A stretch of 64,000 nt of DNA, from assembly GCF_007992435.1 (NCBI RefSeq), contig NZ_BKAG01000003.1, positions 124,001 through 188,000 of the forward strand. Direction: 5' to 3'. This stretch comes from Prosthecobacter gellanilyticus. Lineage in GTDB: Bacteria; Verrucomicrobiota; Verrucomicrobiia; Verrucomicrobiales; Verrucomicrobiaceae. Position 1 is the first letter of the stretch. Each line of letters opens with the position of its first letter. The position numbers were made by a program, and so were the translations under genes. Below, in pieces: positions 7,635 through 27,056 of the stretch. A model generated the notes under the pieces. It had not been told where the DNA came from and ran no database searches. It saw only the letters and a program-made list of their open reading frames with translations.

Positions 7635-8594
7635 ATGAACCCTCGACTGACAGCCATTCACATCTCTCCTGCAGCCACCGTGCTGCCTCACAGCGTTAGC
7701 GAAGTGGAGGCGCGGGCGAATCGCGGGCTGGTGGGAGATCGCTATTATGAAAACGCTGGCACCTTCTCTGGGGCGGATCCGAAGGGTCCCGGAAGAGAGG
7801 TCACGCTGATCGAGGCCGAAGTGTTGGCGGAGTTGCAGCTTTCTGCCGAAGAAGCGCGGCGGAATCTGGTGACCTCCGGGATTCGTCTGAACGAACTTGT
7901 GGGCAGGCAGTTTCGCGTGGGTGAGGTGCTCGTTGAGGGCATCCGCCTTTGTCCGCCGTGCACGCATCTGGATCGTGTGACGGGCAAGGAACTCCTCAAG
8001 CCGCTGGCGGACAAGGGCGGCCTGCGTGCGAACCTTCTCAGTGATGGTGTGATCCGCGTGGGAGATGCCGTGGAGCCTTTGCCTCTTCGTCTTCGTCGTT
8101 TGAATGCGGTGGATGAAACCCAGATCGCGCAGCTAGCCGATGTGCTGATGGACTGCGTGGAAGGTGGTGCCTCGGTGAGCTTCATGCAGCCACTCACCCG
8201 GGAGCGTGCACTGGCCTTCTGGCAAAAGGTGTCTGCGGATGTCTCGGCAGGCAAGCGGGCACTGATGGTGGCGGAGGATGCGGAAGGGATCTGCGGCACT
8301 GTGCAGCTCATCTTTGACCTACCGGAGAATCAGCCGCACCGCGCGGATCTGGCGAAGATGCTGGTGCGTCGTCGGGCCAGGCGACAGGGTCTGGGTGAGT
8401 TGCTGATGCGTACGGCGGAGGTTGCGGCACGGGAAAGCGGGAAGACGCTGCTGGTGCTCGATTGCGTGACCGGCGGGGATGCGGAGCGGCTGTACCAGCG
8501 CCTGGGCTGGGTGCGGGTGGGAGATATCCCGGACTTCGCTTTGTTCCCAGAGGGCGGGCTTTGCAGCACGACGTATTATTACCGGCGGGTTTGA
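7635..8594 (+). CDS. MOSC-GNAT fusion protein
   Basis: A 319-residue two-domain protein. Residues 1-150 are a MOSC domain: EARANRGLVGDRYYENAG, REVTLIEAEVL, RRNLVTSGIRLNELVGRQFRVGEVLVEGIRLCPPCTHL (with the conserved Cys) and GGLRANLLSDGVIRVGD. MOSC domains handle sulfur for molybdenum cofactor or reduce N-hydroxylated compounds. Residues 158-319 are a GNAT domain: MVAEDAEGICGTVQL, ADLAKMLVRRRARRQGLGELLM (acetyl-CoA loop RRQGLG) and AERLYQRLGWVRVGDIPDF. The reading frame is continuous with no stop or frame change at the joint near residue 150. Joint function is unknown. It follows a stand-alone GNAT gene by 7 bp; palindromic repeats lie just downstream. Confidence 0.88.
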   Translation: MNPRLTAIHISPAATVLPHSVSEVEARANRGLVGDRYYENAGTFSGADPKGPGREVTLIEAEVLAELQLSAEEARRNLVTSGIRLNELVGRQFRVGEVLVEGIRLCPPCTHLDRVTGKELLKPLADKGGLRANLLSDGVIRVGDAVEPLPLRLRRLNAVDETQIAQLADVLMDCVEGGASVSFMQPLTRERALAFWQKVSADVSAGKRALMVAEDAEGICGTVQLIFDLPENQPHRADLAKMLVRRRARRQGLGELLMRTAEVAARESGKTLLVLDCVTGGDAERLYQRLGWVRVGDIPDFALFPEGGLCSTTYYYRRV

Positions 8595-8623
8595 GGGAGG
8601 ATTCAAGATCCCTTGGACTCCGT

Positions 8624-8685
8624 CCACCCCATTGGAATGGGGTGGTACGACGGGGCCGGACGTAGAACCCCATTCCAATGGGGTT
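8624..8685. repeat. Paired CCCCATT/AATGGGG palindromes (copies 1 and 2)
   Basis: Copy 1 (8624-8645) has perfect 10-bp arms, CCACCCCATT and AATGGGGTGG, around a central gg. Copy 2 (8666-8685) has 9-bp arms, AACCCCATT and AATGGGGTT, around a central cc. Each can fold alone, and copy 2 is also the reverse complement of copy 1, so the two can pair over a 20-bp loop. A third copy lies at 10255-10274. They sit in the 216-bp gap between the MOSC-GNAT gene and lysA. This is the arrangement of REP/BIME-type extragenic palindromes, and it could also end upstream transcription. Confidence 0.75.
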
Positions 8686-8810
8686 TCATCTGCGATTCAT
8701 GGGTGAGTTTGAGCACGCGCCGGAGTGCCGAATCCCGGTCTGGCCTGATGGCTTGGGCCATGCGCGCCCTTGCGCATGAACGCTTTCCGCCTATCTAGCG
8801 CGCCCTTCGT

Positions 8811-10103
8811 ATGCACCGCTTCCATTACAACCAGGGTCAGCTCTTCTGTGAAAACGTCAGCCTTCAGTCGCTGGCGGAGAAACACGGCACCCCTCTTTAC
8901 GTCTATTCCAAAGGCACGATCACCGACCACTTCACGCGTCTCGACGCGGCGCTCGGTGAGCTGGACCATCTGATCTGCTACGCGGTGAAGGCGAACTCGA
9001 ACCTCTCCGTACTCTCCACCATCGCGAAGCTGGGCGGCGGTTTCGACATTGTCTCCGCAGGCGAGCTTTACCGCGTGATCAAGGCCGGTGGTGACGCCAG
9101 CAAGTGCACCTTCGCCGGTGTGGGCAAGACGCGTGACGAGATCGAGTATGCGCTGAGCCAGGGCATCTACTGTTTCAATGCGGAGTCCGAGGCTGAACTC
9201 GAGTTCATCAATGAAGTCGCGGGCAAGCTGGGCAAGAAGGCCCCGGTGGCCGTGCGCGTGAACCCGAACGTGGACGCGAAGACTCACGCCAAGATCACGA
9301 CAGGCAAGAGCGAGAACAAATTCGGCATCGATTTCGACCGCATCGGCGCGGTGTATGCGCGCATCGCCAATGAGATGCCGAATCTCATCATCAAGGGCCT
9401 GCAGATGCACATCGGCTCCCAGCTCACCAGCGTGGATCCCTTTGTGGAAGCCGTGAAGAAGGTGAGCCCGCTCGTGGCTGAGATGAAGGAGAAGTATAAC
9501 CTGCAGTTCTTCAGCATCGGTGGCGGCATCGGCATCAACTACCGCCAGAGCCTCGACTCCGGTGACGCTGGCTGGTGGGAGAAAAACAGCGCCGAGCAGC
9601 ATCCGCTGACGATCCAGAAGTATGCCGATTCCGTGGTTCCGCTGCTGAAGCCGCTGGGCATCCGCATCCTCTGCGAGCCAGGCCGCTTTATGGTGGGTAA
9701 TGCAGGAGCGCTCCTCACGCAGGTGCTGTTTGAGAAGCGCGGCGGTGCCAAGATCTTCAAGATCGTGGACGCCGGCATGAACGACCTCATCCGCCCGACG
9801 CTGTATGAAGGCTGGCACCAGATCGTGCCGCTGAAGCAGGTTGAAGGCGAAGTGGAGAAAGTCGACATCGTCGGCCCGATCTGTGAGACGGGTGACTACC
9901 TGGCGCAGGATCGTGAAGTGGCTCCGGTGAAGGCCGGGGACTACATCGCCGCGATGAGCGCTGGCGCCTATGGCTTCAGCATGGCCTCCAACTACAACAC
10001 CCGCCCGATGCCTGCCGAGATCCTCGTGGATGACAGCCAGGCCCACGTGGTGCGTGACCGCCAGACTCTGGATGATGTGCTCAAGGGCGAGCATGTGGTC
10101 TGA
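8811..10103 (+). CDS. lysA: Diaminopimelate decarboxylase
   Basis: A 430-residue fold-type III PLP enzyme that decarboxylates meso-diaminopimelate to L-lysine, the last step of lysine synthesis. The PLP lysine is K60 in CYAVKANSN. GGGIGINY binds the PLP phosphate. CEPGRFMVGNAG and CETGDYLAQDR carry the active-site Cys/Glu residues from the partner subunit, and SAGAYGFSMASNYN is the C-terminal signature. Length is as usual for LysA. The start ATG at 8811 lies beyond the palindrome pair; no clear operon partner is seen upstream. A 12-bp perfect hairpin downstream (10135-10170) probably ends its transcript. Confidence 0.96.
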   Translation: MHRFHYNQGQLFCENVSLQSLAEKHGTPLYVYSKGTITDHFTRLDAALGELDHLICYAVKANSNLSVLSTIAKLGGGFDIVSAGELYRVIKAGGDASKCTFAGVGKTRDEIEYALSQGIYCFNAESEAELEFINEVAGKLGKKAPVAVRVNPNVDAKTHAKITTGKSENKFGIDFDRIGAVYARIANEMPNLIIKGLQMHIGSQLTSVDPFVEAVKKVSPLVAEMKEKYNLQFFSIGGGIGINYRQSLDSGDAGWWEKNSAEQHPLTIQKYADSVVPLLKPLGIRILCEPGRFMVGNAGALLTQVLFEKRGGAKIFKIVDAGMNDLIRPTLYEGWHQIVPLKQVEGEVEKVDIVGPICETGDYLAQDREVAPVKAGDYIAAMSAGAYGFSMASNYNTRPMPAEILVDDSQAHVVRDRQTLDDVLKGEHVV

Positions 10104-10134
10104 GTCTAGGTAGATTGGTCTAACGAAAACTGTT

Positions 10135-10170
10135 TTCACCCGCTCATGGCTTTGGCTGTGAGCGGGTGAA
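10135..10170 (+). terminator. Hairpin terminator after lysA
   Basis: The arms TTCACCCGCTCA (10135-10146) and TGAGCGGGTGAA (10159-10170) pair perfectly over a 12-nt loop, 31 bp after the lysA stop. There is no following T-tract, so it may need Rho or act by structure and RNA stabilisation. Confidence 0.6.
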
Positions 10171-10198
10171 CTGCGTTTGAGAGTGGTGGAGTGGTGGA

Positions 10199-10225
10199 GA
10201 GTCCTTCGCCGGAGGCTACGGACTC
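10199..10225. repeat. Nested hairpin GAGTCC...GGACTC
   Basis: Arms GAGTCCTTCGCC and GGCTACGGACTC match at 10 of 12 positions around a gga loop, giving a compact hairpin. It is preceded by two GTGGTGGAG direct repeats (from 10183). It lies between the lysA terminator and palindrome copy 3, so this 260-bp gap is packed with small structured repeats rather than being plain promoter DNA. Confidence 0.5.
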
Positions 10226-10254
10226 CAGGGTCGTGGAGTGAGATGGCGGGGAAA

Positions 10255-10274
10255 CACCCCATTGGAATGGGGTG
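10255..10274. repeat. CCCCATT/AATGGGG palindrome (copy 3)
   Basis: Arms CACCCCATT and AATGGGGTG surround a central gg. The sequence AATGGGGTGGTACG continuing to its right is shared with copy 1 (8636-8649), so the repeated unit is longer than the palindrome itself. It lies 90 bp upstream of the tdh start. Confidence 0.7.
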
Positions 10275-10322
10275 GTACGTTGGGGACGCTTCGCGACTGC
10301 GGTGTCCGGGATAAAATACTTC

Positions 10323-10363: not shown

Positions 10364-11392
10364 ATGAAAGCACTCGTCAAAGCCAGAGCAGAGCGCGGAT
10401 TGTGGCTCCAGGATGTCCCGGAGCCCGAAGTCGGCATCAATGATGTCCTCATCAAGGTGCGCAAGACCGGCATCTGCGGCACGGACCTGCACATCTACAA
10501 GTGGGACGCCTGGGCGCAGAAGACCATCCCGGTGCCGATGGTGGTGGGGCATGAGTTTGTGGGCGAGGTCATCGCCGTCGGCTCCAACGTGAATGACTTC
10601 CATGCGGGTGAGATCGTGAGCGCGGAAGGACATGTGGTCTGCGGGCGCTGTCGTAACTGCCTCGCGGGCCGCCGTCACCTTTGCAAAGACACGGTGGGCA
10701 TCGGGGTCAATCGCACGGGAGCTTTTGCGGAATACATCAGCGTGCCGATGACGAATGTCTGGCATCATCGCGATGGAGTGGATGAGGAGGTGGCGAGCAT
10801 CTTTGATCCCTTTGGCAATGCAGTGCACACCGCGCTGGCCTTTGAATGTCTTGGCGAGGATGTGCTCATCACTGGCGCAGGCCCGATCGGCATCATGGCG
10901 ATTCCGGTCGTGAAGCACGCAGGCGCGCGGCACGTGGTGATCACGGATGTGAATGACTATCGGCTCGATCTTGCACGCCAGATGGGCGCGACGCGGGCGG
11001 TGAATGTAAAGAACGAGAGCATCACCGAGGTGCAGAAGCAGCTCGGCATGAAAGAAGGCTTCGATGTGGGCCTGGAGATGAGCGGCAATGCGACGGCCTT
11101 CCGCGACATGATTGATAACATGTGCCACGGCGGGAAGATCGCCATGCTCGGGATTCCGAGCGAGCAGATCGCCATCGACTGGAATAAGGTGATCTTCAAC
11201 ATGCTGACCGTAAAGGGTATCTACGGCCGCCAGATGTATGAGACGTGGTACTACATGAGCGTGATGCTGGAGAGCGGGCTGAACATCAAGCCGGTGATCA
11301 CACATCGCTTCCACTACACCGACTTTGAAAAGGGCTTCGCCGCCATGGAGTCCGGAAACTGCGGCAAGGTGGTGCTCGACTGGGCCTCATAG
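10364..11392 (+). CDS. tdh: L-threonine 3-dehydrogenase
   Basis: A 342-residue zinc-dependent medium-chain dehydrogenase that oxidises L-threonine to 2-amino-3-ketobutyrate with NAD+. The start ATG 10364 gives [18 protein letters not shown]; longer upstream readings run into the palindrome repeat. [17 protein letters not shown] and VGHEFVGEV carry the catalytic zinc ligands, and [15 protein letters not shown] is the structural zinc lobe. [14 protein letters not shown] is the Rossmann NAD site. [33 protein letters not shown] is the typical Tdh C-terminus. Length matches the enterobacterial enzyme. No kbl (2-amino-3-ketobutyrate ligase) gene is adjacent, which is usual in operons of this pathway, so the partner must lie elsewhere. 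Confidence 0.92.
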
Positions 11393-25607: not shown

Positions 25608-27056
25608 CTATTTCAGCAGCTTAGCAAACTCAGCCCCGCCTTTTTTCGCGGCCTCGAGGTAGTAGGCGATGGCCATGAGATGTTTGGTGGTCTCGCTGCC
25701 ATCGATCTTCTCGCCATTGACCCAGCTTCCATCTGGCTGCTGAGCTTTCAAAGCCGCGTTCACCTTGCCGGCGGAGCCTTTGGCCTTGCTGACCCAGCTC
25801 TTCTCACTGGCGGAGTCTCCACGCTTCTCGAGCAGTTTTTCGCGCGGCTGCTGCAGGAGTTCCTTCAGCTTCGCGACATCGCGGCCGATGTGGTCCATCT
25901 TGAAGCCGTAGTGCGTGGGCATGTTTGAGTCGTCGTAAGTGAGCATATAGGTGTCCTTCACGAAGTAGAGAGGCTTGTTGGTCTGCAACTCGTAGAAGCG
26001 TGCATACTGGCCGTCTGGCAGAGCGGAGCGCTCATACCAGGCCATGGCTGCGGGGATGGGTTTGAGGTATTTTTCATCGCCCGTGACGACGTATAGCTCA
26101 TGCAGGGTCTCCATGGCGCCGAGGCTCTCGCCGCCGGTGACGCAGGGTGGCTCAAACTTACGCGCCCACACGGGCTCCATGTCTTGATTGTACTGCTGGG
26201 CCCAGCCTGGCTGCGGATCGGGCATCTGCGCCATGATGAGGAAGTCGCCCACCTTCTTCGCGCTGTTCAGGTAGCGCTCATCCTTGGTCAGTTCATAAGC
26301 GCGCAGCATGAGCTGTGTGGCCTTTTGCAGGTTGCCATCATTCAGCGTGTAGAAGCTGGTGTAGTTGATCTTTGGGAACTCACGTGACCATGAAGTTGGA
26401 TAGGCCGCCTTCTTCACTGGGGTGGCTGGATCTGCGGGGCCATTGAACTGCTGGCCCCAGGCACCGTTCGGGTATTGAGCGGCGAGCAGGCTGTCGAAAG
26501 CGAACTTCACGCATTCCTGAAGCGCGGCATCGTCTTTGCATTCCGGAAGATGGGAGAGCTCCAGAAGGAAGAGCATGGCGGACTGGGTCTTGTTGTCATC
26601 CAGCGTGCTCATGTTGTTGCGCTTGCCCTGCTCCTTGTCGCCCGCGAGCACCTGCTGGTGCAGCCAGTATTTCTTGGCCTTGTCCTCGGCGAAATCGAAG
26701 TCACTGCTCCAGCCACCACTGGCGAGCTGGCACTCGACGAGCGCCTTGCCGGCAGCCTTCGCGGCTTCGAGGATCTGGGCATCACCGGTGGCTTTGTAGG
26801 CACGGACAAAGGCCAGGCCCAGGGTGGTGGTGCCGGGAGGCTGGATGGAGATCACCGTCTTGGATTCGCTGTGCTCCGTCATGCCGGCACTGAGGTCCTT
26901 TTTCCAGCTGGAGGCATAGCCGCCATGCACGGCCAGCTTCGTGGTGCAGAAGGTCACGGCCTTCTTCAGCGCTTCCGTGGTCGCGGCAGGATCAGGCAGG
27001 GGATCGGCGGCAGAAAGCGCGAGTGGAAGGAGCAGGAAGGCTGGGAGGAGTTTCAT
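25608..27056 (-). CDS. Pectate lyase-like protein (PL10-type)
   Basis: A 482-residue secreted protein started at the ATG ending at 27056 (MKLLPAFLLLPLALSAADP, a signal peptide). NNMSTLDDNKTQSAMLFLLEL matches the PL10 pectic acid lyase core motif. ALVECQLASGGWSSDFDF, AAQYPNGAWGQQFNGP, PQPGWAQQYNQDMEPVWARKFEPPCVTGGESLGAMETLHELY and MTYDDSNMPTHYGFKMD add the repeated GGW/WAQQY pattern of its (alpha/alpha) barrel. PL10 enzymes cleave polygalacturonate by beta-elimination. A second region (residues about 440-480, KVNAALKAQQPDGSWVNGEKIDGSETTKHLMAIAYYLEAAK) resembles a terpenoid-cyclase/alpha-toroid repeat. It is the first gene of a three-gene operon with the esterase and FAD oxidoreductase. Confidence 0.85.
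   Translation of the reverse strand: MKLLPAFLLLPLALSAADPLPDPAATTEALKKAVTFCTTKLAVHGGYASSWKKDLSAGMTEHSESKTVISIQPPGTTTLGLAFVRAYKATGDAQILEAAKAAGKALVECQLASGGWSSDFDFAEDKAKKYWLHQQVLAGDKEQGKRNNMSTLDDNKTQSAMLFLLELSHLPECKDDAALQECVKFAFDSLLAAQYPNGAWGQQFNGPADPATPVKKAAYPTSWSREFPKINYTSFYTLNDGNLQKATQLMLRAYELTKDERYLNSAKKVGDFLIMAQMPDPQPGWAQQYNQDMEPVWARKFEPPCVTGGESLGAMETLHELYVVTGDEKYLKPIPAAMAWYERSALPDGQYARFYELQTNKPLYFVKDTYMLTYDDSNMPTHYGFKMDHIGRDVAKLKELLQQPREKLLEKRGDSASEKSWVSKAKGSAGKVNAALKAQQPDGSWVNGEKIDGSETTKHLMAIAYYLEAAKKGGAEFAKLLK

Follow-up and report, generated by a model that had tools for sequence, protein, structure and literature searches.

Three short palindromes built on one sequence lie around lysA in the window analysed here, a stretch of 64,000 nucleotides (G000:C3:124001-188000) from the 7.65-Mb draft genome of Prosthecobacter gellanilyticus, which is assembled in 137 contigs. 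An earlier, sequence-only reading had described them as a three-copy family that a RAYT-type transposase may mobilise or a protein may bind, and we found all three in place and exact (Table 1). A search of the window alone at up to three mismatches returned these three matches, all exact, against 2.6 expected, which is thin evidence for a family; the genome-wide count settled the matter.

Table 1. Features of the palindromes near lysA (positions in the window)
Feature	Positions	Strand	Sequence or basis
Repeated unit, comprising two inverted REPs with inward tags and the tails on either side	8599-8712	.	Genomic matches
REP copy 1, class B	8624-8645	-	CCACCCCATTGGAATGGGGTGG; minus-strand reading GTAC-CACCCCATTCCAATGGGGTGG
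GTAC guide tetranucleotide, copy 1	8645-8648	-	Sequence; GTAC in 52/68 copies
Dimer spacer	8649-8661	.	Resembles GGGGCCGG and can be recognised in most of the other dimers (13 dimers aligned); 24-26 bp core to core
GTAG guide tetranucleotide, copy 2	8662-8665	+	Sequence; class C guides are GTAG/GTTG/GTGG
REP copy 2, class C	8666-8685	+	GTAG-AACCCCATTCCAATGGGGTT
lysA (diaminopimelate decarboxylase)	8811-10103	+	ORF and hexamer gene call; neighbour, outside the element
REP copy 3, class B, single	10255-10274 (core 10257-10272)	-	
GTAC guide tetranucleotide, copy 3	10275-10278	-	Sequence

A directional family of palindromes across the genome

The 16-bp core CCCCATT-CC-AATGGGG was present at 69 genomic places at no more than one mismatch, three of them in the window, and 56 copies were exact genome-wide, the commonest variant being CCCCATTCCGATGGGG. 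The core pattern read backwards, also a perfect palindrome and used as the control, gave no genomic match. The genome-wide count that the sequence-only reading had called for therefore disposed of the outcome it had named as fatal, namely that only three copies exist, and many copies of one short palindrome in a single genome are characteristic of REPs. An Rfam search gave no match above the gathering score, and no family copies were found in the viral contigs searched.

Anatomy was read from 68 distinct copies with their flanks. In 65 copies the GT tag preceded the stem on the strand with CC in its loop, and in three on the strand with GG, so the palindrome is directional, and the gg and cc centres, which had been taken for a free 2-bp position, are one element seen on opposite strands. 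Pairwise identity reached 0.98 for the core and 0.77 for the guide/tag region, and was 0.27-0.33 for the flanks. The outer stem varies with base pairing retained, giving class A (CAA-core-TTG, n = 22), class B (CCA-core-TGG, n = 32) and class C (GAA-core-TT(T/C), n = 10); the compensating outer pairs were C:G (33/68) or A:T (32/68) at position -2/+2, and C:G (50), G:T (6) or G:C (4 of 68) at position -3/+3. Conserved tails specific to each class were also observed up to ~30 nt past the stem, with GGAGTCC at +6 to +10 in class B and GGTGAGTTTGAA near +20 in class C.

Thirteen inverted dimers carried their tags inside, with the cores 24-26 bp apart; 10 of them joined class B to class C and three joined A-type to B-type, most dimers consisting of a GTAC half and a GTAG/GTTG half, and a further dimer, located in mutS, had its tags outside. 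Copies 1 and 2 of the window had been described as head to head and able to pair with each other. Their orientation is indeed inverted, and together they can fold into a single long hairpin (-25.4 kcal/mol in a DNA fold, z -6.2), although the published term for an arrangement with tags inside is 'tail to tail', and the extension reported as shared by copies 1 and 3 is real, TGGTACG adjoining the stem in both. The dimer with its surroundings (window 8592/8599-8712) aligned with five dimers elsewhere in the genome (83-91% identity, 90-125 bp). This inverted pair, whose spacer is defined and which recurs as a ~114-bp unit at those five sites, corresponds to a REPIN/BIME dimer. In the window, the unit lies between a MOSC/GNAT-like ORF (stop 8592-8594) and the start of lysA.

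Placement relative to genes

Consistent with a mainly extragenic family, which had been proposed as a check, 64 of the 68 copies lay outside genes called with a simple hexamer caller made for this analysis, which called ~94% of the window coding. The four in-gene exceptions include window copy 3, solely on account of a doubtful start that the caller placed at 10262; the ATG at 10364 is more likely. Merged into 44 sites, the copies lay between same-direction genes at 23, in convergent gaps at 15 and in divergent gaps at 6, with convergent gaps enriched relative to the gene pairs of the window (Fisher P = 0.03), and in 11 copies the tag stood 1-7 nt past the stop of an ORF that was at least 100 codons long.

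Within mutS (L056, G000:C26:41312-41372), the inverted REP pair lies in frame in a linker of variable length, and the same linker in congeners contains unrelated palindromes, some with outward-facing GTGG or GTAG tags (L150 and L152; also L155). These sequences suggest that different REP families may have landed repeatedly and independently at one spot of mutS. Elsewhere, a REP directly follows tRNA-Leu(tag) within a tRNA cluster (L013:1402-1520, G000:C4); relatives keep the neighbouring tRNAs, and both tRNA-Leu(tag) and the REP are apparently missing there.

One RAYT gene is bracketed by the family

The genome contains 19 Y1-transposase genes, 11 short IS200-like and 8 RAYT-like. A RAYT gene had been named as something to look for, and one, at G000:C45:25912-26694, was found with family members at both gene ends, as in a REPtron. 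Copies lie at C45:22644, 22747, 25773, 25878 and 26665, and a sixth, with one inserted base, lies ~100 bp beyond the 26665 copy; six copies in the 4.2 kb around the gene compare with 0.04 expected (P ~4e-12). The copy at 25878 ends just ahead of the RAYT ATG, and that at 26665 overlaps the stop, so that the last residues of the RAYT are REP-encoded (L031:1815-1851). The remaining 18 Y1 genes had no copy within 1.5 kb, and this is the sole intact RAYT associated with the family.

The C45 protein has the HUH motif, WQ region and downstream Tyr of a RAYT, its PNHVH, WQ (FWQKESFD) and catalytic Tyr (KYIADN) aligning with homologues. It matched Y1_Tnp above the cut-off and scored 46 bits against NF047646 REP_Tyr_transpos, below the NCBIfam cut-off of 80, and a profile of the protein with seven homologues had TnpArep 4er8 as its best PDB match (E = 4.5e-6). 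The signature of the RAYT class is Y---NP (PMC6006769); the C45 RAYT has YIADNG, with NG for NP, whereas the orthologues L085, L086 and L088 have NP. Judged by sequence, the C45 RAYT is divergent.

Four other RAYTs of this genome have palindromes of their own, namely L029, L030, L032 (tag GTGG) and L034 (tag GTAG), and two of these private families have ~13 and ~44 genomic copies. The larger belongs to L034 (G000:C4:195446-196758), whose GTAG family CATCACACTCCGTGTGATG includes many inverted pairs ~210-240 bp apart.

Hairpins of one plan at orthologous RAYTs in relatives

Of 96 genomes searched, 73 had RAYT homologues, while the motif itself (23-base form, at most two mismatches) was absent from all of the 95 other genomes, which included 47 congeners. 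The closest orthologues of the C45 RAYT, from four species (L085-L088), were 50-56% identical to it, and they are flanked by GTAG followed by an 8-9-bp stem and a short loop, with sequences that differ from the window family (for example GTAG-CTCGACTTTCCAAAGTCGAG and GTAG-CTCGATTTTCCAAAATCGAG, compared with GTAC-CACCCCATTCCAATGGGGTG for the window element in the same reading). Different hairpins of one plan at orthologous RAYTs thus indicate that the recognition unit changes between species and the plan stays constant. In one L088 copy GTAC replaces GTAG, so the tag change is also present within a sister family.

The lysA flanks of relatives, a comparison that had likewise been recommended, contained no copy at any of 29 congeneric loci and almost no hairpins of any kind near the gene. 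Copies at identical places in relatives, which had been set down in advance as evidence against the proposal, were therefore not encountered, the motif being absent. Gene neighbours of lysA differ in relatives, and at lysA, at mutS and in the tRNA cluster alike the REP is clearly absent from relatives and the insertion borders are inexact; none of these three places yielded a clean empty site in which both flanks could be aligned.

The GTAC tag

Among the 68 copies, the tag was GTAC in 52, GTTG in 6, GTAG in 4 and GTGG in 1, and the 11 copies with GTAG, GTTG or GTGG were nearly confined to class C. Members of the GTAG superfamily carry an unpaired GTAG/GTRG tag at one stem end; with its GTAC majority, the family is classed as a variant and not as a plain GTAG family. 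Di Nocera et al. (2013, PMC3733652) describe REP tags as degenerate in positions two and three. In the assays of Corneloup et al. (2021, PMC8266576), mutation to GTAC abolished cleavage by the S. maltophilia RAYT, and for the Marinomonas enzyme it shifted the cleavage site from CT/CA to GA/GT.

In a heuristic survey, 70 RAYT loci at which palindromes recur in the flanks gave GTAG at 27, GTGG at 17 and GTAC at 7, the GTAC tags being consistent across all copies at the GTAC loci, which comprised the window family (one locus read twice), L102 and the group L232/L282/L289/L295. The GTAC palindromes at L102 and at this group flank other RAYT groups in this order and have stems that bear no relation to those of the window family, and their tags suggest that guide shifts may recur in the order. 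No RAYT residue that tracks the GTAC tag was obvious by eye among the 70 loci.

Downstream of class B copies, a GAGT motif was observed in 19 of 32, compared with 3 of 32 in the control stretch, and it was enriched in all classes. GAGT contains both GA and GT, the sites predicted for a GTAC guide; as a sign specific to GTAC it was rejected, since the GTAG/GTTG class is enriched too and the motif was noticed post hoc.

It is conceivable, with the balance somewhat on the side of doubt, that this is a guide-shifted REPtron, in which the RAYT and its REPs switched from GTAG to GTAC. The GTAC tag would then direct cutting to GA/GT dinucleotides and not to CT, and, given GA/GT cutting with GTAC, the heterodimers of a GTAC and a GTAG/GTTG half would act as mini-transposons with two unequal ends, comparable, if so, to the left and right ends of IS200/IS605 elements.

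Explanations of the family

We consider it very probable that the palindromes constitute a species-specific REPtron, in which the C45 RAYT recognises the REPs and spreads them between genes as single units and inverted dimers. The suggestion of a RAYT-mobilised family is thus supported by copy number, extragenic placement, the bracketed RAYT and absence in relatives, from which mobilisation itself is inferred. The C45 RAYT (TnpA-REP, HUH/Y1) would read each REP as a single-stranded hairpin made of a 5' tag, the stem and the CC loop, and its association with the family suggests that it binds, cuts and moves these elements. The REPs by lysA are most likely passengers that settled in gene-free gaps, and an effect on mRNAs, if any, would be secondary. 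Counting against the REPtron reading are the majority tag GTAC, which abolished cleavage by the S. maltophilia enzyme (PMC8266576), the divergence of the RAYT in its profile score and its Y---NP signature, the want of a clean empty site, and the draft state of the assembly.

Perfect palindromes of fixed length in intergenic positions, including a dimer upstream of lysA, would also be expected of operators for a dimeric DNA-binding regulator with lysA in its regulon, but we hold this to be very improbable. Operators would explain neither the one-sided tag (65 versus 3) nor the repetition of tails past the palindrome, and the location of copies at 3' ends and between convergent genes (15 of 44 sites, compared with 6 between divergent genes), the tags placed just past 11 stop codons, the pair within mutS, the lack of a copy at lysA in any congener examined and the RAYT bracketed by the motif all speak against them. 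As a REP family explains the window palindromes, they should not be taken for a lysA operator. The frequent position right after stop codons and between convergent genes is also what bidirectional terminators or stabilisers of mRNA 3' ends would show, were the copies immobile and kept by selection, and in other bacteria REP hairpins have been suggested to act in these ways (PMC3733652). This origin has very little chance of being correct, as the copies have no T-run, a terminator scan was negative at those in the window, tag and tails are conserved outside the stem, and the family is restricted to one species and to one exclusive RAYT; termination or stabilisation is possible as a secondary effect. 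Least probable of all, to the point of being barely credible, are ends of a defunct IS200/IS605-type or other miniature element moved by an IS200-like transposase: the genome does have 11 IS200-like genes, yet none has the motif within 1.5 kb, and it is a RAYT that the motif brackets, with similar hairpins at the orthologues of that RAYT.

Comparison with known systems

The REPtron proposed here is a system of a known kind, a species-specific REP family with its own RAYT, and its new part is the natural variant of the guide. To our knowledge, no RAYT of this phylum has been studied biochemically. In this genome the REP population is small and clearly delimited and has a single identifiable transposase, and sister systems carry other tags; with these natural variants at hand the control of the cleavage site by the tag and the co-evolution of RAYT and REP become testable.

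GTAG-tagged REPs and REPtrons (Di Nocera et al. 2013, PMC3733652; Nunvar et al. 2010, PMC2817692), in which the verrucomicrobium Opitutus terrae is reported to be rich, resemble the window family in their tagged stem-loop and tens of copies, their mostly intergenic position near gene 3' ends, their inverted dimers, their occasional in-frame copies in DNA-repair genes and the single RAYT bracketed by its own REPs, whereas GTAC in 52 of 68 copies is a change at the fourth tag position, and the degeneracy described in 2013 concerns the second and third. The TnpAREP/REP duos of E. coli, S. maltophilia and Marinomonas (PMC8266576) share the HUH and Y motifs and the 5' tetranucleotide guide, and the S. 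maltophilia REP, with an 8-bp palindrome and a 3-nt loop, is matched here by an equally perfect palindrome with a short loop; GTAC, a laboratory mutation there, is the natural majority guide here. As in REPINs (Bertels and Rainey 2011, PMC3116915), an inverted REP pair with a recognisable spacer repeats as a unit, of ~114 bp in this genome, but the tags of the window family face inward, the dimers join unlike halves, in 10 cases out of 13 one of class B and one of class C, and many copies are single.
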